Below the pieces are notes generated by a model. It was not told where the DNA came from, did not search any database, and worked only from the letters and a program-made list of their open reading frames with translations. Source: Alphaproteobacteria bacterium (GTDB taxonomy: Bacteria > Pseudomonadota > Alphaproteobacteria > Puniceispirillales > UBA1172). From it: a stretch of 59,962 nt of DNA. This document shows, piece after piece, positions 4,793 to 23,717 of the stretch (positions are counted from its first letter, which is position 1; each line of letters opens with the position of its first letter). The position numbers were made by a program, and so were the translations under genes. The stretch covers positions 1 to 59,962 of the forward strand of contig JADHOM010000012.1 in the NCBI GenBank assembly GCA_016778985.1, read 5' to 3'.

Positions 4793-5336
4793 GTTCTGGG
4801 CAGTCAGAGTGATCAGTTTACCCAATGCATTTACGCATGAGCTTGACGCCATTAATCGTGTCACAAGAGGGCATATATAAAACATCTGAATAAATACATA
4901 ACATAGAATGTCACAGACAAGAGATAACTGATCATGGCGAGTTTGATTTATTTAAGCAACAAGATGAGTCTGTTTATGTGGAAGCGATCAAGTCGTTTTC
5001 CACGTTACCAATCACAAACTTTCCCAGAAATTTTATAGAGACATTCTGCATTAACAATTTTCTCTGCCTTTGCTCAGATTATAATAATCTAAATTTTGAG
5101 ATGAATATATGTGACTATTTTGAAAATGGGAGAAGGGTTTGAGATAAAACACTTTATGTGTAGCATAGTTAACTATCGGGGGATGCAAAAGAAAATGTAG
5201 TGAATGGATTAAGAGAGTCCACAGATAGAGATGTTTTCGAATTTTACCTAAATGATAAAGCTAGAGTACTTCAGCATTGAGCCGGGAAAGATGAGTTTTT
5301 CTATTGTCATTTGGATACCGCGCGCGAGGATACTAT
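4793..5336. other. Possible decayed coding region
   Basis: In one plus frame (about 4906-5275) the sequence reads like protein: DHGEFDLFKQQDESVYVEAI, later ENVVNGLRESTDRDVFEFYL ending RVLQH before a TGA. The two stretches share a frame but are separated by three stops within 30 codons around 5141-5175, and there is no start codon. Composition and residue pattern suggest a decayed gene; the family was not recognised. Nothing else is seen in this 540-base gap. Confidence 0.35.
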
Positions 5337-5510
5337 TCACCGCCTGAATAACAAAAGCCTAAGCAGCCGCCACAACCCTCTATAAAGGATTGCCCGCAAA
5401 AATGGGTTTTGCAGTAGCCGTTGCGCCGAGGAACGCAGTGCTGGCAGCACGCGCATTGCCAGCAATATGAGAGCACAAGCCAGGATTACGATGATGACGA
5501 TCTTTATCAT
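5337..5510 (-). CDS. Possible 57-residue membrane-associated basic peptide
   Basis: A minus-strand ORF from ATG 5510 to TGA 5337. It begins with one hydrophobic helix (MIKIVIIVILACALILLAMR) followed by a strongly basic, Leu/Arg-rich amphipathic tail (LYRGLWRLLRLLLFRR). Its GC content matches the core genes to the right rather than the AT-rich left flank. No Shine-Dalgarno is visible, so it could be spurious. No family recognised. Confidence 0.4.
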   Translation of the reverse strand: MIKIVIIVILACALILLAMRVLPALRSSAQRLLQNPFLRAILYRGLWRLLRLLLFRR

Positions 5511-8429: not shown

Positions 8430-8468
8430 GCAATAGGAGAGAGATTTCGACTTCTCAAACCCTATTGC
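8430..8468 (-). terminator. Second hairpin after the cupin gene
   Basis: GCAATAGG (8430-8437) and CCTATTGC (8461-8468) are a perfect 8-bp inverted repeat with an inner GAGA/TCTC pairing. It lies between the cupin stop and the terminator at 8368, so it may protect the operon mRNA 3' end. Confidence 0.5.
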
Positions 8469-8522
8469 TTGTATATTTGTGACAATACATCCCTTAATAA
8501 TAGCCGCCGCTACAACTTGAGG

Positions 8523-8873
8523 TTACTCACCCCATGCGCCATGAAACTCATACGCCACGGCGACTTGGTTACCAACAACCCACGCATCATGCCCAGGCTC
8601 AATCGCGTAGGCATCACCAGCGGTATATGTAATTTCGCTACCATCATTATGGACGCATGTAATCGTGCCCTCGACTATAACGCCAACATGTTTGGCCTGA
8701 CAGCTATCAGTTCCGACAACTGGTTTGATGTCATTTGACCATTTCCAGCCAGGCTGGACCGTCAGTTTCATGATCCGCTGTCCTAAGACATTAACCGTTT
8801 CTACCCTGGCATTATTTGGTGTTGAAACTTCATCCGCATCTGTTGCAAAGTTTTTCGCTTCTAGCATATTCAT
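8523..8873 (-). CDS. Cupin-domain protein, last gene of the HxlR-linked operon
   Basis: 116 residues. The cupin 1 motif is degenerate (KHVGVIVEGTITCVHNDGSE, 61-80) and is followed by TYTAGDAYAIEPGHDAWVVG (82-101). His62 and His95 are possible metal ligands, but the usual second His/Glu pair is incomplete. Single-domain cupins include isomerases, dioxygenases and sensors; no substrate can be assigned. It follows the NTF2-like gene by 39 bases on the same strand and is followed by two hairpins, so it ends the operon. Confidence 0.75.
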   Translation of the reverse strand: MNMLEAKNFATDADEVSTPNNARVETVNVLGQRIMKLTVQPGWKWSNDIKPVVGTDSCQAKHVGVIVEGTITCVHNDGSEITYTAGDAYAIEPGHDAWVVGNQVAVAYEFHGAWGE

Positions 8874-8912
8874 TTTTCTCTCCTAACTAAATTATCGATA
8901 AAATTTGGGTGA

Positions 8913-9242
8913 TTATGACAATGTGGTAGCACCCGTTTCTACATGAATGATCAGACCATCTTTTTTCATGGCAATCATCATAACCGCTTCTCTGCTATCA
9001 TCTGGATAAGACATGAAACTATGTTCAATCATAATGTCTTCATTCTCATAGACGCAGCGTGAAGACTCCCGAATAAACTTATCATTCGCCATTATTGCAG
9101 TAGCCATTGGCGCCCATTCACCTTTTGAGAACACATCGCCAGATTTATGAAAAACTATTTTGCAATCGTCATGGAGCAATGCGAGGTAAGCATGTGCATC
9201 TTTATCATCCATCGATTTTTTGAATTGTTCATATAATTCCAT
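8913..9242 (-). CDS. SnoaL/NTF2-like small protein
   Basis: 109 residues. The pattern YEQFKKSMDDKDAHAYLALL followed by HDDCKIVFHKSGDVFSKGEW and a later beta-sheet region (SREAVMMIAMKKDGLIIHVE) is typical of the NTF2-like/SnoaL cone fold, whose members include isomerases, cyclases and hydrolases of small organic molecules. Catalytic residues cannot be assigned. It sits third from the end of a tightly packed minus-strand operon of proteins all under 130 residues, suggesting a shared small-molecule pathway. Confidence 0.65.
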   Translation of the reverse strand: MELYEQFKKSMDDKDAHAYLALLHDDCKIVFHKSGDVFSKGEWAPMATAIMANDKFIRESSRCVYENEDIMIEHSFMSYPDDSREAVMMIAMKKDGLIIHVETGATTLS

Positions 9243-9304
9243 ATCTGTGTTTCCTTTAATGTGAGCGTAAAGGTAATCGGAGCGTAAGGGTTTAGCGGCG
9301 CTAT

Positions 9305-9586
9305 CTAGCGATGCGCCCTTACAACACCGGCAACGGCATTTTGCAAAGTCATGCCAAATTGCTCGGCTGCCATATCCCGAATTGAGCTGATTTGGGGAAG
9401 TGCCGCTTGACCTGTCTCTGCATCAGGAAATTGAACAACAACCATCATGCTGTCGTCACCGGTCTGAACCATATAGGCATGGGTTGCACCCGTATCCATA
9501 ATCATCGGCATGAATTTCGCTTCAGCCTCAGCAACCATAGTGTCAGTAACTAGATCAATTGACCAATGTGATGCCGTCATAAACAT
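9305..9586 (-). CDS. Small ferredoxin-like alpha/beta (ABM-like) protein
   Basis: 93 residues of alternating beta/alpha pattern (MVAEAEAKFMPMIMDTGATH, then HAYMVQTGDDSMMVVVQFPD and AAEQFGMTLQNAVAG) resembling the dimeric alpha-beta barrel/antibiotic biosynthesis monooxygenase fold. Such proteins act as cofactor-free monooxygenases, heme-binding proteins or unknowns. The assignment is by pattern only. GGAGAG lies upstream of the ATG at 9586. Second intact gene of the HxlR-linked operon. Confidence 0.6.
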   Translation of the reverse strand: MFMTASHWSIDLVTDTMVAEAEAKFMPMIMDTGATHAYMVQTGDDSMMVVVQFPDAETGQAALPQISSIRDMAAEQFGMTLQNAVAGVVRAHR

Positions 9587-9641
9587 AATGCTCTCCTATC
9601 TATTATTTAAGTTTAAGCTACTCATTTTATAAACTTGAAGA

Positions 9642-10022
9642 TTATAGTTTCTGAACGACTCTGCCGCCCATTGTGACGAGAGGAGAATACTTCTCAAACA
9701 ACTCAAAAAAATCACCAATACGCGGCCAGCTCTGGCCTAACTCAACATGCTTTCCAAAATGCTCGTCATCAATATGTACTTCACTGACATGATAAACAAC
9801 ATGTCCTGTCGTACCCTTTGCCGGGTCCATCATATCGTTCAATTCTGGGGCTTTCGTAACATAGTATTCGAGGGTGTGGAGCTTGCCGCTTTCATCCTCC
9901 AATGAATGCGTTTCAGACATCCAGCTTGCGTGAGATGCCATCAATTCATCAACTGCTGACTCATCGCTATCCGGTACGCGCATCATGAAACCGAATGTAG
10001 TGTTACCAACTTTAAAGCCCAT
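9642..10022 (-). CDS. Hypothetical ABM-like protein of the HxlR-linked operon
   Basis: 126 residues from ATG 10022. GGAGA overlaps the upstream ATG at 10028 and sits seven bases before 10022, so the second ATG is the likely start (MGFKVGNTTFGFMMRVP). The protein has a hydrophobic strand, an acidic helix (DESAVDELMASHASWMSETH), a central strand (HTLEYYVTKAPEL) and TGHVVYHVSEVHIDDEHFGKH, compatible with a two-lobed ferredoxin-like fold as in polyketide cyclase/ABM-like proteins. No family was firmly recognised. Confidence 0.6.
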   Translation of the reverse strand: MGFKVGNTTFGFMMRVPDSDESAVDELMASHASWMSETHSLEDESGKLHTLEYYVTKAPELNDMMDPAKGTTGHVVYHVSEVHIDDEHFGKHVELGQSWPRIGDFFELFEKYSPLVTMGGRVVQKL

Positions 10023-10057
10023 TATCATTCTCCATAAAAAAAAGTGTTATTAACATA

Positions 10058-10324
10058 TTAGTTCACATAAAGCTCAGAAATGGTCGTTTCCAAAATATGC
10101 CCAGACGCTGCGATTTCCGCTCCATGTGTTTCCATAAAAATCTGCATATGCTTTTCGCTCAGAACATTCATAACAACACATACTTTTTGGTCATTATCTG
10201 GCTCATGCCCATGATAAAGCGCAAATATACCTGCTTTTCGTGCAATGGGCTGGTGGTCATAAAACGCCTTTTCCTATTCTGCAAAAGAATTACTAATTTC
10301 GAATTTTAATATCGATGTAATCAT
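10058..10324 (-). pseudogene. ABM-like small protein gene interrupted by an in-frame amber codon
   Basis: Reading ATG 10324 to TAA 10058 gives 88 codons with a single TAG at 10276-10274 (codon 17): MITSILKFEISNSFAE, stop, EKAFYDHQPIARKAGIFALY and onward to ISELYVN. The sequence is coherent on both sides, and the interrupted position lies in the pattern FAE-x-EKAFYDHQP where Trp is expected (TGG to TAG). A G-rich run (GGGGGG) about 8 nt before the ATG may serve as Shine-Dalgarno. It is the first gene of the minus-strand operon continuing at 10022 and faces the divergent HxlR gene. Either recently inactivated, or read through at low level. Confidence 0.75.
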
Positions 10325-10357
10325 TTCATACACCCCCCTTATCAAATTAAGTTTTTG

Positions 10358-10394
10358 CAAATCTGTCCGATAATCTTGGTCAACCAGATATTTG
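10358..10394. promoter_or_regulatory. Imperfect inverted repeat in the HxlR/operon divergent promoter
   Basis: CAAATCTG (10358-10365) and CAGATATTTG (10385-10394) are inverted with two extra bases in one arm. They lie between the amber-containing first operon gene and the divergent HxlR regulator, where an HxlR operator is expected. The spacer is otherwise AT-rich and featureless. Confidence 0.35.
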
Positions 10395-10513
10395 ATACAT
10401 TGAAATAATAATGTTAAGCTTTTATTATAGAAAAAACATTTACCAACTCTAAAATGATACTGGTTCGATTTTAGATATGGTTTTTACAATCTGGCTTTTT
10501 GGTGGTTTTTCAT

Positions 10514-10957
10514 ATGGACGATTTTAACAACAACTTCATCTTAAAGCGCCGCCCCATTAAATGCCCTATCGCAGCCAGCTCTGCTGTGCTGGCAGACCAA
10601 TGGTCGGTTATTGTTCTCCGCGATATCGCGTTCTTTGGCAAACGAACATTTCGTGACATTCTTTCAACCAATAATGAGAATATCCAGTCATCAACATTGG
10701 CAAAGCGGCTCAAACGGATGGTTGATATTGGTCTGCTTAGTTTTGAGAGTGATGCGTCACATGCCCAGCGCAAAATATATTGCCTGACACAAGCCGGGAT
10801 TGACCTTGTGCCGATTATGGTCGCCATGGCGGCCTGGACATCCAAACATGATATATTCAATTCTGACACAATTCAATTTCTTGAACCGCTACAGAATAAA
10901 AATAACGCAGCAATGGAAGCATTTTTGAAGAAGTTAAGGCATGACCATTTAGGCTAG
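10514..10957 (+). CDS. HxlR family winged-helix regulator
   Basis: About 147 residues from ATG 10514; a TTG 15 bases upstream is a weaker alternative. HxlR hallmarks are visible: KCPIAASSAVLADQWSVIVL near the N-terminus, FGKRTFRDILS, then TLAKRLKRMVDIGLLSFESD and the wing QRKIYCLTQAGIDLVPIM. HxlR proteins are dimeric winged-helix DNA-binding proteins, often responding to aldehydes or quinone-like electrophiles via cysteines. Only one Cys near the N-terminus (PIKCPI) resembles the redox Cys of that group. Divergent from the five-gene minus operon, which it likely controls. Confidence 0.88.
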   Translation: MDDFNNNFILKRRPIKCPIAASSAVLADQWSVIVLRDIAFFGKRTFRDILSTNNENIQSSTLAKRLKRMVDIGLLSFESDASHAQRKIYCLTQAGIDLVPIMVAMAAWTSKHDIFNSDTIQFLEPLQNKNNAAMEAFLKKLRHDHLG

Positions 10958-11037
10958 GCAAATGGATATCAAGACTTGCCTAATTGATACCTAGATGTAA
11001 TGTTAACGCGATAGGTGCTTTATCAAAGAGGTTTAAA

Positions 11038-11334
11038 ATGATAACCAAAATCTTCATTCGGACATTCCCGTCAACCGAAGAATGCGATTTATTCGAATCT
11101 CTTTTAGAAACGAGATGGCCATCACTGCTAGAAGAAACTAAAGGCGTTACATTTTCGGCTTTCCGCAATAAACAAACTCCGCATGTGTCGACGGTAATCT
11201 GGTTCTTCCCTGATGAAGCAACACAGAAGCAAGTCGAAAAATTAATTGAGGAACATATCCAAAAATTCACCAAAACCCTGTCACCAAAGACAGTGACTTT
11301 CAGCGGTGAAAAAACCCTTATGTATTCAACCTAA
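11038..11334 (+). CDS. Hypothetical 98-residue protein, ferredoxin-like fold suspected
   Basis: Start taken at ATG 11038, preceded by AGAGG at good spacing. The pattern ITKIFIRTFPSTEECDLFES, then FSAFRNKQTPHVSTVIWFFP and ATQKQVEKLIEEHIQKFTKT is beta-alpha-beta-beta-alpha-like, similar to ABM-type domains. It follows the HxlR gene by 80 bases and may be co-transcribed with it, in keeping with the small ABM-like proteins on the other side of that regulator. No function assigned. Confidence 0.6.
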   Translation: MITKIFIRTFPSTEECDLFESLLETRWPSLLEETKGVTFSAFRNKQTPHVSTVIWFFPDEATQKQVEKLIEEHIQKFTKTLSPKTVTFSGEKTLMYST

Positions 11335-11356
11335 AGATAATTTATACAAAGTCATA

Positions 11357-12112
11357 TTAACTTTCTTTTGAGAACAGAACATCCGTATTGTGGGCTTTTT
11401 CTAATTGCCATTTGATTTTGAAACCATGTGATTTCAAGACATCTATGACGCTAAGATTTTGATGATCAATTTCAATAAAAACGTCTTTGATTGAGGGCGA
11501 TTGCAGAAACTTGGAGGCACCGATTAAGACATCATGTTCTGCTCCATCAACATCAATTTTTATATGCGTTGGCATGACCTTATTTGCCTCGGCAAAATCA
11601 TCTAATGCCAGTGTCATTACTTCATATTCATAAGTTACATTTTTCTTATGTAATGATGGGATATGAGTGTCAGAATTAGCTTCGATGGTGATCATCTCAC
11701 CAGATTTTGCCCCAACTGCTGCAAATGTGAATTTAAAGCGGTCATGATTAAGTCGCCTATTTAAGGCGCAAAAATGGCTTTGATAGAGGCTACAATCAAA
11801 GCCAAAGACACGAAGATTTTTATGGATCAAAGACGATGCAAGCGACGCTTCCTGCCCATAGCTTGTTCCGACATCAAATAAAATTGACTCGTCATCCAAA
11901 TCATTGAGCTACTGGTATAATTCGGGCTCTCTGTTTTGCTTTGAAATATCAATCAGATCATCACAAATATAATGATTATTGACTGGAACAAAAAATGTGG
12001 CATTCATGTCTAACAATTTTAATGTTTTGGTTTTTGGAAGGCTTCTGAACAGTTTTGCCAAATAATAGAAAATACGAACTAACACCAACATCCTTTCACT
12101 TAAATGCCACAA
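11357..12112 (-). pseudogene. FkbM family methyltransferase interrupted by an in-frame amber codon
   Basis: The 5' part (12112-11912) ends KQNREPELYQ at TAG 11911-11909; the 3' part continues in the same frame with LNDLDDESILFDVGTSYGQE to 11357. Together they give about 250 residues, normal FkbM length. SILFDVGTSYGQEASLA is SAM-binding motif I, and HIKIDVDGAEHDVLIGA is the FkbM signature (K-D-D/E-G-x-E). FkbM proteins usually read EP..L.W(I/L) just before motif I, so the amber lies where Trp is expected (TGG to TAG). Start uncertain (TTG 12112 or ATG 12091). Members O-methylate sugars or polyketides. Likely inactivated, unless read through. Confidence 0.75.
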
Positions 12113-12130
12113 AAAATGGTTATACCGCGA

Positions 12131-13885
12131 TTAGTCGCCGACTGCTAGCCCTTCGCGGCGGGGGTCTGCGCCGCCTTCGAGACCAGTTTCGGTTATCGCT
12201 ATGGCATGCAGCCCAGAGGTTAATCCCCGAACATTAACCTTGAACCCCATAGCTGAGAGTGGCTCAGAAAATCTTTCCGCATCAGAGCCTTGCTCAAGGT
12301 CAAAGGTGCCAAATCTATTGATAAGATGAGGCATCGACACCGCCTCTTGTACATTCATATCCCAATCAATAAAGGCAATAATGGATTGCGCCACATAGCC
12401 AATAATGCGACTTCCGCCAGGGGAGCCAATGATCAGATATGGCTTCTTGTCTTTCAAAATAATTGTTGGTGACATCGACGAGCGCGGCCGTTTGCCGGGC
12501 TCAACACGGTTGGCAATAAGCACCCCATCGTTATGCGAGCGAAACGAAAAATCCGTCATTTCATTATTGAGCAGAAACCCGTTTGTCATTAATCGGGAGC
12601 CAAAGGCATTTTCAATTGTTGTCGTCATTGATAAGGCATTGCCATATTGATCAACGATAGAAATATGCGATGTCGACGGCAATTCTAGGCTGTCATCATC
12701 AGCATATATGTCAGCAATATCAAAAACAGGTTCACCGGGGGCAACATCCTCAAGCGCATTTTGCCCGTCAAGCAATTGCGAACGGGCGCTCAGGTAATCG
12801 CGATCGATCAGGCCATCTACCGGAACAGGAACAAAATCACTATCCGCCATATAACGCCCACGATCGGCAAAGGCTAAGCGTGACGCATCACCAATTAGCC
12901 GCCACGCATCGACGGCATCTGGCCCCATCTGTGAGAGGTCATAGCGTTCCAGCATTAATAAAATCTGCCCTACGGTTAAGGCGCCAGATGACGGCGGTCC
13001 CATGCCGCAGACATCATGGCCGCGATAGTCAACACAGACAACTGGCCTTTCTTTAACCATATATCCAGCCATATCATGCCGATCCAACATGCCTGGATTG
13101 CCTGCTGCGGTCTGAACGGTATTAACAATTCCTTCGGCAATATTGCCATGATAAAACGACATGCCTTTATCAGATGCCATTATGCGCAAAGTGTTGGCAT
13201 AATCCGGATTTTTCAGCGTTTGCCCTGCTGCAATGGGCACACCGTTAGGGTAAAAATACTGCGCTGTTGTGTCAAACCTAGACAGCCGCTCTTGATCACG
13301 AGTAACCAGCATTGATAATCTTGGCGACACCGTGAACCCTTCCTCTGCAAGGGTGATAGCATCATCAAATAACCCCGACCATTCGAGTCCCCCCCAGCGC
13401 TTATGGGCGTCCAGCATTAAGGCTGCTGTGCCTGGCACGCCAACCGATTTGCCGCCAACCACCGCCTCATAAAATTTCAATGGCTTGCCGTTTTCATCTT
13501 GAAATAAATCCGGCGACACATGGCGAGATGCGGTTTCTCTGCCATCTAAAGAGGTGAGATTGCCACTATCGGCATCAAACCAAATGAGAAAGGCGCCGCC
13601 GCCCAAGCCTGAACTCTGCGGCTCAACCAGACCAAGAACACTTTGCGCCGCCACCATAGCATCGGCGGCGGTGCCGCCTTGGGCAAGGATATTTGCCCCT
13701 GCCTCAACCGCATAGGGATTAGCGGCTGAGATCATCCAGCGTTTTGACGTCACCGGCTGACCTTGTTGTTTTAGATTAAGTGAAGCCTCTAAATCACCTG
13801 TCACAGCATTACTGTTAACGGCAAAAAAGCCAATAAGGATGGCACCCGTAAGGACAGCGCCTAAAATGATAATTTTTTTCAACAT
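12131..13885 (-). CDS. ggt: Gamma-glutamyltransferase
   Basis: 584 residues, full length. A signal peptide/anchor spans about 3-23. Arg116 in LDGRETA corresponds to the substrate-carboxylate Arg. The autocleavage nucleophile is Thr405 in the segment STSHISIVD (404-412), at the expected large/small subunit junction. SSMSPTI and the glycine-rich GSPGGSRIIG follow downstream. The enzyme cleaves gamma-glutamyl bonds of glutathione in the periplasm or transfers the glutamyl group. The residue after Thr405 is Ser instead of the commoner Thr, within family variation. It lies upstream of the amber-broken FkbM gene on the same strand (18-base gap); otherwise a single gene. Confidence 0.93.
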   Translation of the reverse strand: MLKKIIILGAVLTGAILIGFFAVNSNAVTGDLEASLNLKQQGQPVTSKRWMISAANPYAVEAGANILAQGGTAADAMVAAQSVLGLVEPQSSGLGGGAFLIWFDADSGNLTSLDGRETASRHVSPDLFQDENGKPLKFYEAVVGGKSVGVPGTAALMLDAHKRWGGLEWSGLFDDAITLAEEGFTVSPRLSMLVTRDQERLSRFDTTAQYFYPNGVPIAAGQTLKNPDYANTLRIMASDKGMSFYHGNIAEGIVNTVQTAAGNPGMLDRHDMAGYMVKERPVVCVDYRGHDVCGMGPPSSGALTVGQILLMLERYDLSQMGPDAVDAWRLIGDASRLAFADRGRYMADSDFVPVPVDGLIDRDYLSARSQLLDGQNALEDVAPGEPVFDIADIYADDDSLELPSTSHISIVDQYGNALSMTTTIENAFGSRLMTNGFLLNNEMTDFSFRSHNDGVLIANRVEPGKRPRSSMSPTIILKDKKPYLIIGSPGGSRIIGYVAQSIIAFIDWDMNVQEAVSMPHLINRFGTFDLEQGSDAERFSEPLSAMGFKVNVRGLTSGLHAIAITETGLEGGADPRREGLAVGD

Positions 13886-14204
13886 AGTTTACCCTTTGTT
13901 ATATCGTCAATCATGCATGGTAACGCTTGGCAAACTCACATCATCGCAAATACAGGATTGAATGAACCTAGATTGAATGAACCTAGTTTAATATCATACA
14001 AAGTTCCATCTCACTGTCCCGTAATGATGACATTATTTTAGCAGACCAGAAAATTATTTTCTATTTATATTGGGTATATCTACAAATCTGTGATAATTTT
14101 GATTTAGATTTTAAATATGGCGAAATCAAACTTAAGTCTGATAAATTTTTAATATAATTTAATCTGGACTAACGCCTTTAAGATTAATTAATCAAAGGCG
14201 ATCC
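13886..14204. other. AT-rich intergenic promoter region with a short tandem repeat
   Basis: Divergent promoter region between ggt and the small secreted protein gene. It contains a perfect 2 x 15-bp tandem repeat (13957-13986) and otherwise very AT-rich DNA. No coding frame recognised. Confidence 0.45.
13957..13986. repeat. 2 x 15-bp tandem repeat
   Basis: ATTGAATGAACCTAG occurs twice without a gap (13957-13971, 13972-13986), about 70-100 bases upstream of ggt. Either replication slippage or a pair of direct regulatory half-sites. Confidence 0.6.
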
Positions 14205-14549
14205 ATGTCCGTATTTAAATTATATGCTTCCTGTTTCATTATATTAGTATTTTCTAATACAAATGTCGCTTTTGCAGATACCAAACAATCTGGGCTTGGC
14301 TTAGGTTTCAATATTATGCAGAGCATTTGGCAGGGTAAAACAGACAACCCCAAAATGACAAAATGCCGATTAGTTAAAAGGAAGATTAATGCTGGCGATC
14401 AAATGTGTGTGTATAAAGGGGCGCAGAACACATTTGTTGCCATTTATAATGATAAAGGCGCGTTTTGTCCTAAATCCATGTTATGCAAATTAAACCCCGA
14501 TGACTCCAAAACCCTAGGCAGTTTTGTGCAAGCATTTATGAAAAAATAA
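14205..14549 (+). CDS. Small secreted protein, unknown function
   Basis: 114 residues with a clear signal peptide (MSVFKLYASCFIILVFSNTN, cleaved near AFADT, about residue 25). The mature part has four cysteines (KCRLVKR, MCVYKG, FCPKSMLC) that could form two disulfides, and is basic. No family was recognised. It stands between divergent ggt and the convergent KPR-like gene. Confidence 0.6.
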   Translation: MSVFKLYASCFIILVFSNTNVAFADTKQSGLGLGFNIMQSIWQGKTDNPKMTKCRLVKRKINAGDQMCVYKGAQNTFVAIYNDKGAFCPKSMLCKLNPDDSKTLGSFVQAFMKK

Positions 14550-14569
14550 TCACTGCTTGTTACTCCGGT

Positions 14570-15649
14570 CTATTGCTGTTGGCGATTTTTATTTAGCCAA
14601 GCATCAACTAGCGCGACCGAGGCATCAATCTCATCATTTTGCTTATCTAAACTCTGTCCAATCATTTGCACCAATTTATCAACGCGTTCGATATTTGTCG
14701 CCCCTGCCGCCAGCGCCCGCGCCGCTGATGAAGGACTAGTCAATGATTGCGCAGCATGTGCATATTTGTCAAAGGGCACAAAATCAGCCACTTCACCACC
14801 TAGTGACAGGCATAAATTAACGACCCATTCATAAACCTCTTTTGAGGCGGCAAGATCGCTATGCACCGCTTCTTGAATGGAACGCATGTTTTCAGCCTGA
14901 ACACAGCGATAATTCCCCGCCATCAACATCGCCCATTTTGCCAATGGCACAAAAACCGATTCATGGACTTTCAGCTTTACGGGCAAAGCTATATCGTCTT
15001 GATCGACTGTTCTAAAGCGAGCGGCTTCTATGGTTTGCTCAAGCTGCTTTAACATTTTTGTATGTTTATCATCGACAAATCGTGCCGATTTGAAATTAGT
15101 TGGCAAACGCACTTGCAACACATTAACATCTTCATCTGGTGGGCGGAACGCTTGTGGGTCAGGGCTGCATAACGTCATCAGATTAGGGTCAAGTTCATCC
15201 CAGATATGAGGCGATACATAGCACCCACGAAAGGCCAACGGGTTAAGCTCAGGGATACGCGACAAATAGGTCAGAGGCGGCATATTCATGATAGACATAC
15301 ATGGGCGTTTTGCCTTCGCAACCCGTTTCATCAGCGCTGTTATTTCAGGTGAGCTACTATATTGTGGCTCCTGCATGGCCAGCACCACTATATCAAAATG
15401 AGCCGGCACAGCATCTTCGGCTAAACAGGCAACAATTGCCCCTTTAAGCATATTAGAGTTAACCTCAATCAGCCCGTCAATACCGCGGACAGGCATCCGA
15501 ATAATGGCCCCTTTGTTATTGAACGCCTCCACCTCATGCGGCAAACAAACCATTGTTGCATCATGCCCTGCCAGCGCTAATTTTGTTGCTATTAGTGATC
15601 CATAAGATGCCCCTAATATAAGAATACGATAGCTCGTCATCATCGCCAC
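14570..15649 (-). CDS. Ketopantoate reductase-like NAD(P)-binding protein
   Basis: 359 residues. The N-terminal Rossmann motif is ILGASYGSLIATKLALAGHD (11-30), followed by a strand ending DIVVLAMQEPQYSS where ketopantoate reductases carry their second signature. The C-terminal half is helical with a Lys-rich interface (KLKVHESVFVPLAKWAMLMA), as in ApbA/PanE-like or opine-dehydrogenase-like proteins. The canonical substrate residues are not evident, so it is a divergent member, not certain PanE. It is divergent from the GntR regulator at 15889 and may share its control. Confidence 0.65.
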   Translation of the reverse strand: MAMMTSYRILILGASYGSLIATKLALAGHDATMVCLPHEVEAFNNKGAIIRMPVRGIDGLIEVNSNMLKGAIVACLAEDAVPAHFDIVVLAMQEPQYSSSPEITALMKRVAKAKRPCMSIMNMPPLTYLSRIPELNPLAFRGCYVSPHIWDELDPNLMTLCSPDPQAFRPPDEDVNVLQVRLPTNFKSARFVDDKHTKMLKQLEQTIEAARFRTVDQDDIALPVKLKVHESVFVPLAKWAMLMAGNYRCVQAENMRSIQEAVHSDLAASKEVYEWVVNLCLSLGGEVADFVPFDKYAHAAQSLTSPSSAARALAAGATNIERVDKLVQMIGQSLDKQNDEIDASVALVDAWLNKNRQQQ

Positions 15650-15761
15650 CTTTCTTTCCTGTTTCCCTTAATCCGTTGATAGTTGCTCAGGCTTCCTAGC
15701 AATCGAATAAGTACCTTTCTGAAGGTTGGTATGGCAAACCTAACTATACATTAAATATTAT

Positions 15762-15773
15762 ATTGTTAACAAT
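15762..15773. promoter_or_regulatory. Perfect 12-bp palindrome in the KPR/GntR divergent promoter
   Basis: ATTGTTAACAAT (15762-15773) is a perfect palindrome between the divergent KPR-like and GntR genes. The half-site TTAACAAT recurs at 16764 upstream of the aminotransferase gene. Inference: operator of the adjacent GntR protein acting on both promoters. Confidence 0.45.
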
Positions 15774-15888
15774 TATTTTTATTTTTGTTGATAATATTGG
15801 CGTTTTTATGAAGATTTTCTTGGAAGTATTCCAGATAATATATTAGAATAAATTAATATAAATAACGTGATTGATAGGCAATTAATTA

Positions 15889-16623
15889 GTGCAAATAGTG
15901 AAGCCAAAGACCAAGGACATCAATGCAGGTGATCAAAATCTGCATAAAGAAAATATTGAAAAGCGCATTGTTGATCGCATTTTTCAGGCTGTTATTGAAC
16001 AGCGCTTATTGCCAAATACCAAACTCAGCGAAAGCAAGTTATGCGAAACTTTTGGCGTTGGCAGAATGCATGTTCGTCGCGCCTTGTTGTTGTTGTCATC
16101 ACAGGGAATAATTAATCTGCAATCCAATCGTGGGGCTTTCGTGGCAAGCCCTGACCAAAACCAGTCTAATGAGGTTTTTGAAGCTAGGCTCCTGATTGAG
16201 CCAACCCTCATTCGAACATTAACAGCCAGCATTCAAGCATTGCAGTTAGATGATATCTCACACCATATCCATCAAGAGGATTTAGCGCGCCAGAATAATG
16301 ATCGCACCAATTTGATCCGCTTATCTGGAGAGTTTCATGTCAAGCTTGCAGAAGCGTCAGGAAATACAATTATCACAAAAACAGTTCGTCAATTGGTAAC
16401 AAAAACATCGCTCATTATTGGCATCTATGGATCATCATCGCATGCCTATTGTGCTGACGGCGCGCATCAGCAGCTGCTAGATGCTATCAAAAAACGTAAA
16501 CCAGATCAGGCAGCTGAGATCATGACCTGTCTGCTCAAGCAGATATGGGCGCAAATCAATATTGATACGCATAACGCCAAGTCTGAAACGCTTGACGATA
16601 TTTTAGGCGGCAGCCTTAGCTAA
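15889..16623 (+). CDS. GntR family regulator (FadR/FCD subfamily)
   Basis: 244 residues, starting at GTG 15889. The winged helix-turn-helix spans about 24-87 (KRIVDRIFQAVIEQRLLPNT, then LSESKLCETFGVGRMHVRRA and the wing NLQSNRGAFVA). The C-terminal all-helical FCD domain shows the metal/ligand pattern: E.R..IEP near 100, an EFH motif (GEFHVKLAEASGN, about 149-161) and a DGAHQQLLDAI His near 205. FCD regulators sense small carboxylates. Its neighbours are an aminotransferase (185 bases downstream) and a divergent KPR-like protein, implying control of amino/keto-acid metabolism. Confidence 0.88.
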   Translation: MQIVKPKTKDINAGDQNLHKENIEKRIVDRIFQAVIEQRLLPNTKLSESKLCETFGVGRMHVRRALLLLSSQGIINLQSNRGAFVASPDQNQSNEVFEARLLIEPTLIRTLTASIQALQLDDISHHIHQEDLARQNNDRTNLIRLSGEFHVKLAEASGNTIITKTVRQLVTKTSLIIGIYGSSSHAYCADGAHQQLLDAIKKRKPDQAAEIMTCLLKQIWAQINIDTHNAKSETLDDILGGSLS

Positions 16624-16807
16624 TATCGCGGGCCACTATGAAGCACATATATTAGAAAAGCGTCATATCCTTGAAATTTTATCTACTGGTATTATTTTAT
16701 ATGAATTGGTTGCTATGAGTAAAAACCCAAACACGCAAAAAATAAACACTCAAAACTAACTGATTAACAATAATAATTTGTCACTCAAAAACATATAGGA
16801 AACCATC

Positions 16808-17944
16808 ATGGACACGCAATTTTCATCATCCCGTCATTCTGAGTTGCAGGAATATTCTGTTGTCTTTACAGACCGGTCGTTAAACTCAATGTCAAAACCT
16901 TTTCAGGAAGTTATGCGCGGCCTGCATGATGGTTTGTGTGAAGTCTATGGCGCCTCAACCTGCGTTTTAATTCCTGGCGGTGGCAGCTACGCGATGGAAG
17001 CGGTGGCCCGTCAATTTGCCAGTAATGAAAATGTATTGGTTGTGCGTAACGGCTGGTTTAGTTACCGCTGGTCACAGATTTTTGATCAAGGCGTAACCCC
17101 AGAACATGCCGAAATTGTCATGGCACGGCCTAACACCGACAATAAAGATCAGCAATTTAGCCCGGCACCTAGTGATCATATCTGTGATAAAATTAGAGCC
17201 GAGTCGCCGCGTGTCGTTGTATCCCCGCATGTGGAAACATCCGCAGGCATTCTGATGCCTGACAGCTATCTCAAGCAAATTGCTGATACCGCGCATGAGG
17301 TTGGCGCCATATTTGTTCTCGATTGTGTGGCATCAGGCGCGTTATGGGTCGATATGAAAGACCTTGGCGTTGATGTATTAATTACTGCCCCGCAAAAAGG
17401 GTGGACATCAACGCCTTGTGCTGGTGTCGTTATGCTGTCTGATCGAGCCTATGAGCGTATGCAAGAAACGACATCTGATAGCTTTGTTCTTGATCTTAAA
17501 AAATGGCATCAAATCATGAAATCCTATCTAGATGGTGGCCATGCCTATCATACCACCATGCCAACCGATGGGCTGTCACAATTCTATGATGCTTACCTTG
17601 AAATGAAGTCCTTTGGTTTTGACAAAGCTAAAGCCGCGCAAATTGAGCTAGGCACGAAACTCCGCAAAATTGTTGAAAGCTATGGCTATAAATCCTTAGC
17701 CGCCGAAGATTTTCAATCACCAACCGTCATTGTCTCACATACCGATAGAGATGATATCAAAAACGGCACCGCCTTTGCCGCCCATGGCGTTCAAATCGCG
17801 GCTGGCGTGCCGCTTGAATGTGGCGAATCGAGTGCCTTCAAAACTTATCGCATTGGATTGTTTGGTCTTGATAAGCTGATGAATATTGAGCGGACAATTT
17901 CCAACTTTGAAAAGGTTTTGGATAAAGTCACTCAAGCATCATAA
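16808..17944 (+). CDS. Class V aminotransferase (alanine/serine-glyoxylate or aminoethylphosphonate type)
   Basis: 378 residues. PLP fold type I features: LIPGGGSYAMEAVARQF phosphate-binding region (54-70), SPHVETSAGI (139-148), Asp172 in FVLDCVASG for the pyridine N, and the Schiff-base Lys197 in TAPQKGWTS. AGGAA precedes ATG 16808. It resembles alanine-glyoxylate and 2-aminoethylphosphonate aminotransferases; the exact substrate is unresolved. Located just after a GntR/FCD regulator and probably controlled by it. No phosphonate genes are nearby, which argues against an AEP role. Confidence 0.85.
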   Translation: MDTQFSSSRHSELQEYSVVFTDRSLNSMSKPFQEVMRGLHDGLCEVYGASTCVLIPGGGSYAMEAVARQFASNENVLVVRNGWFSYRWSQIFDQGVTPEHAEIVMARPNTDNKDQQFSPAPSDHICDKIRAESPRVVVSPHVETSAGILMPDSYLKQIADTAHEVGAIFVLDCVASGALWVDMKDLGVDVLITAPQKGWTSTPCAGVVMLSDRAYERMQETTSDSFVLDLKKWHQIMKSYLDGGHAYHTTMPTDGLSQFYDAYLEMKSFGFDKAKAAQIELGTKLRKIVESYGYKSLAAEDFQSPTVIVSHTDRDDIKNGTAFAAHGVQIAAGVPLECGESSAFKTYRIGLFGLDKLMNIERTISNFEKVLDKVTQAS

Positions 17945-18037
17945 TCACAAGTGATGCGGTAAGGGTTTCACTTAAGAGACATTGTTCAAGGGACATTGTA
18001 TGGGGCAGAGAGGGCGCTACATACCCACCGCGATTTA

Positions 18038-21000
18038 TTAACGCTTATTGTTTTCAATAAATCGCCGAAACACCGATAACAGAATTGGCACATAAAATAA
18101 GGTAGCAATGGTTGAGAGGCTTAAGCCGCCAAAGACAACAACGCCAATGCCGCGATATAACTCAGAGCCTGCGCCAGGGAAAATGACCAATGGCAATAAT
18201 CCAAATAATGATGTCATTGTTGACATAAAGATTGGCCGAATACGGTTTTGGGTTGCCTCTATGATCGCCGCCTCAATTGGCATCTTATCTTCGTGATGAT
18301 GCAGGGATGTTTGTTCCACCATTAGAATAGCATTATTAACCACTATACCGGTCAGAATGATAAAGCCGAGCATGGTCAACATGTCTAAAGGCTGGCTGAT
18401 AAAAATATTCAATAACGCCAAGCCAATCAGCCCGCCTATGGCAGAAACCGGGACAACCATCAGAATAATAATCGGCATCACAAAACTGCGTAATAAAATG
18501 GTCATCACCAGATAAATCATCAGCACCGCCAATAAGACATTCGCTTTCATTGCCTGCCATGTTTGAGCCAATTCACTTGCCGCTCCTGAAATGTCAATAT
18601 CGGTGGCGCTGCCAACAGCCACTTGCATGTCGGGGATAATCTCATTTTCAATGATAAGGATACTATCCTCAAGCGACAGAGTTTCGGTCGGCCTTAAAAT
18701 GATCGACATGACTAGCTTGCCACCTAATCGACGTATTTCTTCAGGGGCGGTGGTGAACTCGACCTTAGCTAATTGTGACAATTGAACAATTTGCCCATCT
18801 GCGGAAACGATTGGCATAGCTTTCAGCTGATCAATCGAAAGATCGCCAGCCTCTGCGCCAACAACCTGCAAATCAAGCAGCTCACCCGCATAAGGGATTT
18901 GTGTGACAACATAGCCATCGTTAAATACATCAACATAATTGGCAAAATCTCTGATTGAGATACCGAGCCGCGATAATGCCAGCACGTCAGGGGTAATGGT
19001 AATCTCTGCGGCATTGTTATTGAGACTGGGCACAACCCTGATCTGATTACCATCACGCCGCGGAAACGCCGCCGACAGACGCTGATTGAGCTCAATAATG
19101 ACGGGTTCAATGTCTTTCAGACTACTCCCCATAATATTAATCTCAATCGACCGTGAGCCACCAACCGAGCGGCCAAATAAGGACGCTTGGCTAACAAAGA
19201 CAGACGCCCCAGGAATATCAAAAAGCGGCCGCATCAAAATTGGCCGCAATTCATTGACTCTAGCGCTGTCAACGGTTGAGCCGCCAGCAAATGCGCCGCC
19301 TCCATAAGCCACAAAAAAGAAGCGTTCAATCGCTGGCAAACTCGTGGTTGCTGGATCAGCTTCCCATAATGGCCTCGCCCCTTTTTCCATAGCACTGGCA
19401 ATGCTTAGCGTCTCATCCACAGAATATCCAGGCGGCACAGAAATCCTGCCAAAGACAAAATTAGCATTACCATCAGGCAAGTAATCCAGTTTCGGCATCA
19501 TCACCAAAATGCCGCCAATAATGATCATAAAAACGACGCCGATCAGGATAATGCCGCGCCTTGGGGCATCCAGCATGGCATTGGCATGGCGCAATACAAT
19601 CGCCTTAAAGCCGCTCCCGATGGCATCTATAATTGGGATTGTGATTAAGGTATCTGGCTTAAAGCTGCGGTGGTTTAGCATAACCGAAGATAAGGCCGGT
19701 ATCACCGTAACAGACACTAAAACCGATATCAAAACAGATACCGATATCGCCACCCCAATATCACGAAATAGCTGTCCAACCGGCAGCTGCAGGATAATAA
19801 TCGGCAAAAAGACAACGACCGTCGTAATGGCTGAGCCTAAGATTGGTGCCCATACTTGGCGGGCACCATCAAAGGCGGCTTGTTTGGCGCTCTGCCCCGC
19901 CTGCCGTAATCGGAAAATATTTTCCTGACTAACAATGGACGCATCCACCACCATGCCAACAGCAAAGGCTAAGCCTGCCAGTGAAATAACATTGATCGAA
20001 AGTCCAAGTGCCGAGATTGCAACAAATGTTCCAATGACAGAGATAGGGATCGCACAGAACACAATCAGCGTTGGCAAGACACTGCGCATAAATAGCAACA
20101 AAATACTTACCGCCAACGCCCCGCCAATAAAGATATTCTGCTGAACGAGGGAGATTGCTGATGAAATATAGACGGTTTCATCATAGATGACACGCAATTT
20201 AAGCCCCATTTGCTTGAGCGTATTTTGATTGAGATCAGCGATCTTTTCTTTAACCCTCCCCATGGTTTCAACAACATTGGTGCCTTGTTCGCGCGTCAAA
20301 TTGATGATGATCGCATTCTCACCATTAAGCCGGCGGAAACTACTGGCATTGGCAGGCTTGACTTCCAGTCGCGCAATATCGGAAAGCCGGACAGGGATAA
20401 TATTGCCGTTCTCTGCTTGATCGGCGCGAATAACAATATGCCCGGCTTCTTCCAGGGTGAAAGATGGTGACGATACACGAACAATATATTCACGCTTGCC
20501 CGCCTCAATATTACCAACACTTTGCTGCGTTGTTGCTGATCGTAAAGCATTAATGACTGTTGTCATATTAAGCCGATATAAAGCGAGTTTTTCAGGATCA
20601 ATAATGACCCGCATCTCAAACTCATTACCGCCATATTTGAAGACATCAGAGACACCCTCAACACGCGCCAGAGGGTCCATAATATTGGTTGTCAAAAAGC
20701 GCCCCAGCGCATCAATATCGGCCACGTCCGCCGGATCAATACTATCATCATTGAGCACCGTTAAGGCGAGCCTGGAAATAGGCGAATCATCAGAGTTTGA
20801 TGTCCGCACAATCGGCGCTTTGGCATCATCAGGCAGACCAGTAATCCCTGATAATTCTGACAGCAGCAAGGTCAAAGCCTTATCCATATCTTGATGCACA
20901 GAATAGGTGATGGTCACTCGCGCCGAGCCCGAAAATGACCGTGAAACGATTTTCTCAATTCCACTTAAGGCGCCAAGGTCTCTTTCCAGCCGATTGATAA

Positions 21001-21190
21001 TCTCTCGATCAACATCAGCCGGTGATGCCCCCGGCCAATTAACCCGCACCTGCAATACTGGCCGTTCAATATCCGGCGTCAGCTGGATCGGAACCTGTTG
21101 CAAGGCCGATAAACCAAATAGAAAAATCATCAGCATTATCGCCATAACAGCGGTAAGATGATTAATAGAAATGCGGATAAGATTAGACAT
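18038..21190 (-). CDS. RND efflux transporter inner-membrane permease
   Basis: 1050 residues, full RND length, with the usual duplicated arrangement of 12 TM helices and two large periplasmic loops. The N-terminus reads ALQQVPIQLTPDIERPVLQV and PGASPADVDREIINRLE, conserved in AcrB/MexB relatives. TM4 carries AVGMVVDASIVSQENIFR; the first relay Asp is present, while the second Asp of the AcrB pair is Ala. The C-terminal half has LTMLGFIILTGIVVNNAILM. Exports hydrophobic compounds using the proton gradient, together with the adaptor encoded upstream (39-base gap). No outer-membrane channel gene is adjacent. Confidence 0.93.
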   Translation of the reverse strand: MSNLIRISINHLTAVMAIMLMIFLFGLSALQQVPIQLTPDIERPVLQVRVNWPGASPADVDREIINRLERDLGALSGIEKIVSRSFSGSARVTITYSVHQDMDKALTLLLSELSGITGLPDDAKAPIVRTSNSDDSPISRLALTVLNDDSIDPADVADIDALGRFLTTNIMDPLARVEGVSDVFKYGGNEFEMRVIIDPEKLALYRLNMTTVINALRSATTQQSVGNIEAGKREYIVRVSSPSFTLEEAGHIVIRADQAENGNIIPVRLSDIARLEVKPANASSFRRLNGENAIIINLTREQGTNVVETMGRVKEKIADLNQNTLKQMGLKLRVIYDETVYISSAISLVQQNIFIGGALAVSILLLFMRSVLPTLIVFCAIPISVIGTFVAISALGLSINVISLAGLAFAVGMVVDASIVSQENIFRLRQAGQSAKQAAFDGARQVWAPILGSAITTVVVFLPIIILQLPVGQLFRDIGVAISVSVLISVLVSVTVIPALSSVMLNHRSFKPDTLITIPIIDAIGSGFKAIVLRHANAMLDAPRRGIILIGVVFMIIIGGILVMMPKLDYLPDGNANFVFGRISVPPGYSVDETLSIASAMEKGARPLWEADPATTSLPAIERFFFVAYGGGAFAGGSTVDSARVNELRPILMRPLFDIPGASVFVSQASLFGRSVGGSRSIEINIMGSSLKDIEPVIIELNQRLSAAFPRRDGNQIRVVPSLNNNAAEITITPDVLALSRLGISIRDFANYVDVFNDGYVVTQIPYAGELLDLQVVGAEAGDLSIDQLKAMPIVSADGQIVQLSQLAKVEFTTAPEEIRRLGGKLVMSIILRPTETLSLEDSILIIENEIIPDMQVAVGSATDIDISGAASELAQTWQAMKANVLLAVLMIYLVMTILLRSFVMPIIILMVVPVSAIGGLIGLALLNIFISQPLDMLTMLGFIILTGIVVNNAILMVEQTSLHHHEDKMPIEAAIIEATQNRIRPIFMSTMTSLFGLLPLVIFPGAGSELYRGIGVVVFGGLSLSTIATLFYVPILLSVFRRFIENNKR

Positions 21191-21229
21191 AACTATCCAT
21201 TATTCTTCTGTTATATATTGCGCTGGCTC

Positions 21230-22441
21230 TCATGGTTTTACAATCTCAACCACCATCCCATCACGTAAGCCCTCATTGCCTTTGGTGACAATCTGCTCAC
21301 CAATGGTTAAGCCAGTCTTTATGACAATTCGATCAGCAATAGTTGCGCCAATAGCGATATTGCGGCGCAACACCTTATCATCTTCAATGACAAACACATA
21401 GACACCATCAGTATCAGGAATAATAGCATCAGACGGGATCGTGACGACCGCCTGCTGATCCGATGCTGGGATATTCACCCGCACACGCGCCTGATCAGCC
21501 ATCATAGCAGGGGTCATCGCTGATGTGATAGTGAAGCGGACAGGTCGGGTGTTGGTTTTTTGGTTTTCTGCCGGAATCTCACTGCGGATGACCGCGGCCA
21601 GCTCTCTGCCAGTGGCGTCAAACCCTGTTATAGATTTGCCAATGCGCAAAAATTCGAGCATGGAAATAGGGATATCAACCTCAATTTCATAGCCGCTGGA
21701 GGCACGGATTTGGGCAACCATCTCACCTTTGCGGAAATATTGATTATCCAATGAAGTGACACTAACAAGCTGACCAGCAACAGGGGCGATGAGACGGCCA
21801 GAGGCAATGTCAGATTTGGTATCAGCAATCTCAATGGCAATCAATTGCGATTTGATTTGGGTTTTGATCAGATCACTTTCCAGCTTAGCGATATTTTTCT
21901 GGAACGTGACTTCTGCTTGCCGCGCCTGAAGATAGGCGCGCAAAGCTTCATCCAGCCGATCTTTGGGGACAATATTTTCAGTCGCCAATTCAGTCAGCCG
22001 CTCAAATCTGGCTTGTTGCAAGACGGTTTGCTCTTTCGCCAAAGCCAGCAGGTCAATCTCAAAATTGAGAGACGTTTCAATTTGCGTAACAAGCTGCTTG
22101 GCTTCGGTTTGCTCTAAGATAAGCTGATCATGTTTGATTTGGGTTTTTGTTGTATCTTGTTGGGCAATCAGCTCCCCTTTATCAACAAAATCGCCATCAC
22201 GCCAAGAGGCCAATTCCACAACCCCATCAATAGCCGTGACAATGGCTAAATCTTGGCTCGCAATAATCCGCCCTTCCATCATATTCTGTGCCGCAATGAT
22301 GTCAGATATCACCTCAGCCACTTCAACTTTAGGTGCTGACTGACTATATTGCGCCGCTACTGGTGACGCCAAAACAAAAAACAATAAAAGAGGGCTTAAT
22401 AAGATAGCGCATATTAAGGGACAAAAACGATTTCTGATCAT
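21230..22441 (-). CDS. RND efflux periplasmic adaptor (membrane fusion protein)
   Basis: 403 residues. N-terminal signal peptide (hydrophobic 8-31, PVAAQ). The biotinyl-lipoyl half-motifs are AIDGVVELASWRDGDFVDKG before, and GRLIAPVAGQLVSVTSLDNQ after, a long alpha-hairpin (about 95-205) rich in Gln, Glu and Leu. Beta-barrel and membrane-proximal domains follow (TVTIPSDAII.DTDGVYVFVI). It bridges the RND permease to an outer-membrane channel. First gene of a two-gene operon with the permease, so the pair is expressed together. Confidence 0.92.
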   Translation of the reverse strand: MIRNRFCPLICAILLSPLLLFFVLASPVAAQYSQSAPKVEVAEVISDIIAAQNMMEGRIIASQDLAIVTAIDGVVELASWRDGDFVDKGELIAQQDTTKTQIKHDQLILEQTEAKQLVTQIETSLNFEIDLLALAKEQTVLQQARFERLTELATENIVPKDRLDEALRAYLQARQAEVTFQKNIAKLESDLIKTQIKSQLIAIEIADTKSDIASGRLIAPVAGQLVSVTSLDNQYFRKGEMVAQIRASSGYEIEVDIPISMLEFLRIGKSITGFDATGRELAAVIRSEIPAENQKTNTRPVRFTITSAMTPAMMADQARVRVNIPASDQQAVVTIPSDAIIPDTDGVYVFVIEDDKVLRRNIAIGATIADRIVIKTGLTIGEQIVTKGNEGLRDGMVVEIVKP

Positions 22442-22644
22442 TGACTTCTTGCCTGTTCAAAATGATAGCGCCATATTATATGAGATATGCAATATGCGCT
22501 AACATTAAGAAAGATAATGCGTTTTATGCAGTTTCAATCCTTTATCACTGGCATTTTTATCACTGGTAATTTTTTAACTGGCATGACCAAGACGCTGCTA
22601 ATGTTATGTCCTACATATCATGCAAATGGTGAAAGGGTTTACGG

Positions 22645-23253
22645 TCATTCAACAAAATACTGTACTTCACGGACGATCATATCCTCACCGTTGATTGGCA
22701 CCATATCTTGCGGGCATGTCGACATAACGACAATAACATCATGATGCGCGCGCAGACGGATATAATCCCCGGGCTTGGATAATGGTGGACAGAAATCTGT
22801 GGCGCCATCTAATGTGAACGGAATATTCATCCATAAATTAAGCGGTGACGGCGTTTCTGGCACGGTCAAGCCTATGACTTGCATGGCAGCCGCCAGATTA
22901 TCCGTGCAGTTATCATGATACTCCGTGCAGCCCAGCATCTTATAGCGATAGACATCACAAGCCGCAAGCAACGTATCATGGCGGCCAGGTGAGGTATCTT
23001 CCTCGACCGTCAGAAGCGGCCGCCGATGATTGCTATATAAGGGCGCCCCAACCACCGGAAACATGGATTGCGAAACACTGCGTTGGTGTTCCATAGACAT
23101 AAATTCTGCCAAATTATCTTTGATGAAACACCATGTATCGACGACTTGCGTGCCATGCGTGTTGATGATGGTGATAGCCTCACCAGTCTTGACATAAGCC
23201 GCCCTTCCTTGACGCGCTGGAACCGTTTCTAATGCTTTATCTGCACCTGTCAT
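22645..23253 (-). CDS. DUF1989 / urea carboxylase-associated family protein
   Basis: About 202 residues from ATG 23253, chosen for AGGAG upstream rather than the in-frame start at 23274. Family features: INTHGTQVVDTWCF near residue 35, SMEHQRSV, GRHDTLLAACDVYRY, GCTEYHDNCTDNL and the C-terminal HHDVIVVMSTCPQDMVPING. The conserved His/Cys residues suggest metal binding. Members sit near urea carboxylase/allophanate hydrolase or amino-acid catabolism genes; their chemistry is little known. Here the downstream partner in the same direction is absent and the upstream gene is a decayed MBL gene. Confidence 0.85.
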   Translation of the reverse strand: MTGADKALETVPARQGRAAYVKTGEAITIINTHGTQVVDTWCFIKDNLAEFMSMEHQRSVSQSMFPVVGAPLYSNHRRPLLTVEEDTSPGRHDTLLAACDVYRYKMLGCTEYHDNCTDNLAAAMQVIGLTVPETPSPLNLWMNIPFTLDGATDFCPPLSKPGDYIRLRAHHDVIVVMSTCPQDMVPINGEDMIVREVQYFVE

Positions 23254-23282
23254 GATCAATGCTCCTATCACCAATAGACATA

Positions 23283-23717
23283 CTACAGCTCTATTCTAAC
23301 CCGATCCTTGGCAAAATTCATCCCTTGGGGTAGTTTTTTTTCAAGTTCAGCCAGCTTAGCATCATGCCTAAACAGCACGTGATGCGTGATCATAAGCCGC
23401 TTGATATCTGTGTTCTGATAAAAATCAATTGCTTGGTCGATAGAACAATGTCCCCAGCCTGCTTTACTAGCCTGCTCATCATGAGTGAACATGCCATTCT
23501 ATATCACCAGATCAGCACCTGCCGTAAAATCTGCTAATGGCGCGGCTTGCTCTTGGTCATATTCATTATCAGACAGATAACAAAACCGCTTATCGCCAGC
23601 GTCAATCCGATAGCCATAACAGCCGCCCGAATGCTGGAGCTTGAGCCAGCTTAATTGGCCGGCAATCACTCTATTGATATGAGCGCTGATTGGCATAGCC
23701 GAAAATGATAATCCAGC
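23283..23717 (-). pseudogene. Metallo-beta-lactamase-fold hydrolase remnant (5' truncated, in-frame amber)
   Basis: The 5' half (from 23717, after a TGA) reads LQHSGGCYGYRIDAGDKRFC, then LSDNEY and GADLVI, stopping at TAG 23501-23499. The 3' half continues in the same frame: NGMFTHDEQASKAGWGHCSI through KRLMITHHVLFRHDAKLAEL. This is the C-terminal third of an MBL-fold family with GGCYGYRI, a second-half ADLVIxDGMFT and GWGHS/C motifs. The HxHxDH metal site and all N-terminal strands are missing. Relatives carry Trp or Tyr at the amber site, and the next codon AAT replaces the usual Asp GAT. Clearly non-functional as hydrolase. Confidence 0.75.

Follow-up and report, generated by a model that had tools for sequence, protein, structure and literature searches.

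Three in-frame amber codons in a SAR116-type genome are probably nonsense mutations of tryptophan codons in accessory genes

When the window (the whole stretch of DNA analysed here, a complete contig of 59,962 bp) was compared with its closest relative, three in-frame TAG codons on the minus strand were found to stand where the relative has TGG. We consider, with a probability of about 0.92, that these are independent TGG-to-TAG nonsense mutations in accessory genes under weak selection, and that the genes are pseudogenes. Dispensable accessory genes would be expected to lose Trp codons by a single G-to-A transition, TGG being one transition away from TAG; Trp-to-stop changes are a familiar mark of pseudogenes. 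The contig (C15) belongs to G000, the 2.1-Mb genome of a marine SAR116-type bacterium in 43 contigs that is 98.6% complete. The closest relative, G001, is a SAR116 MAG; its DNA identity to the window is about 85–94% (~90%) and its gene order is collinear, both over the stretches compared. The broken genes are as follows.

10061..10324, minus strand: DUF3764 gene of 88 codons; the conserved Trp at codon 17 is replaced by a stop (TAG 10276-10274); the frame is otherwise conserved.
11360..12091, minus strand: FkbM-type methyltransferase gene of 244 codons; a stop takes the place of the conserved Trp at codon 61 (TAG 11911-11909).
23286..23696, minus strand: remnant of an MBL-fold gene, reduced to its C-terminal half; a conserved Trp is replaced by a stop (TAG 23501-23499).
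5146..5358, plus strand: SCO4226-like remnant; the frame holds one stop of each kind (TAA, TAG and TGA), and ~120 bp are missing relative to G001.

The initial annotation had described three in-frame TAGs that interrupt coherent minus-strand genes, and the codons lie in frame exactly as it placed them. Its statement that all three changes are G-to-A on the coding strand agrees with TGG in G001 against TAG here. It had called Trp clear at two sites, which stands, but the third site (MBL) is likewise clear, so the claim was a slight understatement. Alignment of homologues, which it had proposed as a check, gave Trp at all three sites, with the exception of three distant MBL homologues (~29% identity) that carry Ile. 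Since G001 has TGG at all three positions and the homologues have Trp, the sequences indicate that all three stops are TGG-to-TAG changes that arose in the window's lineage.

The DUF3764 read-through frame matches PF12594 (E 1.4e-13); the earlier label 'ABM-like' for this gene does not agree with the Pfam match. Every aligned homologue has Trp at the amber site. Intact orthologues are present in G001 (92% amino acid identity) and G022 (68%), the gene is patchy (9 of 61 relatives), and an intact paralogue is found in the same genome at G000:C2:5068-5307. The pairwise dN/dS is 0.06, and the frame after the TAG looks conserved. Release factor 1 (RF1) should terminate at the TAG, which would leave a product of 16 residues.

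The FkbM frame matches Methyltransf_21/FkbM (PF05050, E 9e-12). The amber site is Trp in G001, in L188 and in L189, L190 and L191, and the intact orthologues show identities of 93%, 72% and 62–63%, respectively. The nearest named relative at this locus is the SAR116 cluster MAG MED595, whose contig there corresponds to G001:C119. The gene is present in two of seven genomes of the genus, and a search of viral contigs gave no match to it. The pairwise dN/dS is 0.16, and this frame also looks conserved after the TAG. Termination by RF1 would give a product of 60 residues. It is unlikely, although conceivable, that the gene is kept alive by a restart at TTG 11899, 9 nt past the TAG, from which a protein of 180 residues with the methyltransferase core is predicted. 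The Pfam match lies entirely within the 180-codon open reading frame, which also retains the SAM-binding core and the FDVGTSYGQEA motif. However, no Shine-Dalgarno-like sequence was seen by eye at this position, and all five intact homologues have, in similar form, the N-terminal 60 residues that would be lost.

Neither FkbM nor DUF3764 has a second lesion. Few changes downstream of the stops could be polarised on the G000 branch, and these show no non-synonymous excess (synonymous/non-synonymous changes 6/4 in FkbM and 4/3 in DUF3764). A single lesion in a conserved frame fits recent inactivation of both genes and fits readthrough equally well. The two stops are thus young or, less likely, the genes are read through. 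Both genes have an intact orthologue in the sister genome together with a derived stop, G001 and the outgroups having TGG at the site, the pattern that marks a nonsense pseudogene.

Further lesions are present in the other two genes. The MBL frame matches the C-terminal half of Lactamase_B_2 (PF12706, E 1e-11); ~420 bp of the N-terminal half are present in G001 and missing here. The G001 copy (L064:18053-18867) keeps its N-terminal half and has TGG at the site, but it is split by a frameshift. Different lesions have disabled the MBL gene in the two genomes, and it was already dead in the window's lineage. An intact MBL paralogue is present in the same genome at G000:C1:78307-78672. The gene at 5146-5358, assigned as SCO4226-like on a weak Pfam match, is intact in G001, and a search of 61 genomes gave matches in 19 (G000 included). 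The neighbourhood is one of accessory genes in decay by every route, with stops of all three kinds. Taken on the sequences of the three amber-bearing genes, full-length proteins would not be made from them.

The presence of three stops of one class within 13.5 kb is mildly unusual. From the codon usage of G000, a single random nonsense mutation is a Trp-to-TAG change with a probability of 0.04–0.12, a value that varies with the transition bias. The chance that three stops share any one class is about 0.4–1.6%, a figure not corrected for the selection of these particular stops. We regard this as a mild, post hoc coincidence, and it loses weight when the fourth broken gene, with one stop of each kind, is included.

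TAG is an ordinary stop codon in this genome. The RF1 gene prfA is present and without stops (503 bits against a cut-off of 423), and TAG terminates 81 of 361 orthologue-supported genes. In moaA, which the initial annotation had listed among the intact genes that end properly with TAG, an apparent interior TAG is indeed the proper gene end (the G001 residue at this position is undetermined). The proposed search for a tRNA with a CUA anticodon found none among 33 Rfam tRNA hits genome-wide. ARAGORN typed 32 of these and did not call the remaining one, a 58-nt partial hit on C38; the tRNA-Trp recovered has a CCA anticodon. The recovered set lacks tRNA-Tyr and tRNA-Ile, which are probably missing from the assembly. 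The absence of a CUA tRNA alone is not conclusive because the recovered set is incomplete.

The proposed count of in-frame TAG in conserved genes was made by comparing ~1.0 Mb of G000 with 1.24 Mb of G001, taken as stretches, yielding 533 orthologues, 161,950 aligned residues and 1,984 G001 Trp sites. Eight of these Trp sites aligned to a stop in G000. Three are the present cases; those of the remainder that were inspected lay in N-terminal over-extensions or badly aligned ends. Apparent interior stops in ParB, a XerC-like gene and several others were likewise over-extensions upstream of the real start. No further interior TAG at Trp was confirmed in the 533 orthologues, and the ~1.0 Mb of G000 compared yielded no further convincing nonsense codon inside a gene outside this contig. 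Genome-wide suppression or reassignment is incompatible with this survey. Global reassignment, which the initial annotation had considered unlikely, is refuted by RF1, the normal use of TAG, the failure to find a CUA tRNA and the lack of any other confirmed interior TAG at a Trp site among the 533 orthologues.

Among the three possibilities that the initial annotation had left standing, recurrent nonsense mutation is well supported, local hypermutation is unsupported and readthrough is without positive evidence. Local suppression, by a suppressor tRNA or by codon context, would have the TAGs read as Trp. The position of all three TAGs at conserved Trp residues and the conserved downstream frames of FkbM and DUF3764 speak for it. 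It is nevertheless very improbable, given that the anticodons recovered include CCA for Trp and not CUA, that RF1 is present, and that suppression acting genome-wide would permit interior TAGs elsewhere, of which none at Trp was confirmed in the 533 orthologues. The three contexts (GAA TAG GAA, CAG TAG CTC and ATA TAG AAT) have nothing in common, and half of the MBL gene has already been lost. The narrower proposal, that FkbM and DUF3764 stay functional because Trp is inserted at their TAGs by a lineage-specific and context-dependent readthrough, is very improbable. A literature search turned up no report on amber recoding in SAR116.

A strand-biased local hypermutation (C to T on the plus strand) would account for three changes that are all G to A on the coding strand. 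The differences from G001 are, however, balanced, both in 8437-12853 (C>T 52, T>C 54, G>A 63, A>G 53) and in 22124-23660 (C>T 33, T>C 24, G>A 32, A>G 23). These two stretches, at 9.5% and 12.6%, are not grossly more divergent than the others (7.7–10.8%). This explanation is rejected at the regional scale by the balanced spectrum, and its overall chance is minimal. An assembly error, arising from the consensus or from a mixture of strains, deserves thought where the related records are MAGs, but it too is very unlikely, since the amber sites lie 10–24 kb from the contig ends. The sole stop found near a contig end is a TAA in an acyl-CoA synthetase frame (G000:C4 near 25310, 62 bp from the end), which is probably an assembly-end error; it is accompanied by several unusual substitutions, unlike the three amber sites.

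The main value of nonsense mutation as the preferred reading is one of caution. Trp-to-TAG changes in several neighbouring genes mimic recoding, and yet they are expected from single transitions in dispensable genes. Readthrough, if true, would be UAG-to-Trp recoding outside the known bacterial reassignments, which all concern UGA (PMC8629427).

The three genes resemble known systems of UAG reassignment or suppression in having an in-frame TAG within coherent frames. Such recoding includes code 15 in crAss-like phages and the UAG reassignments of ciliates. They differ in that RF1 is kept, TAG is a common terminator, a suppressor tRNA was not found and no other interior TAG at a Trp site was confirmed in the survey. 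The in-frame stops of pseudogenes come mostly from codons, UGG among them, that a single transition turns into a stop. Shulgina and Eddy attributed spurious signals of UAG or UGA as Trp in eight yeast species, where they found no suppressor tRNA, to pseudogenes for this reason (PMC8629427). The present case bears the same signature, and no new mechanism is required to explain it. With bacterial pseudogenes carrying TGG to TAG or TGA changes, it shares the conversion of a conserved Trp codon by one G-to-A transition, the accessory nature of the genes and the lesions in neighbouring genes; it differs in nothing substantial, apart from the occurrence of three changes of one class in 13.5 kb.
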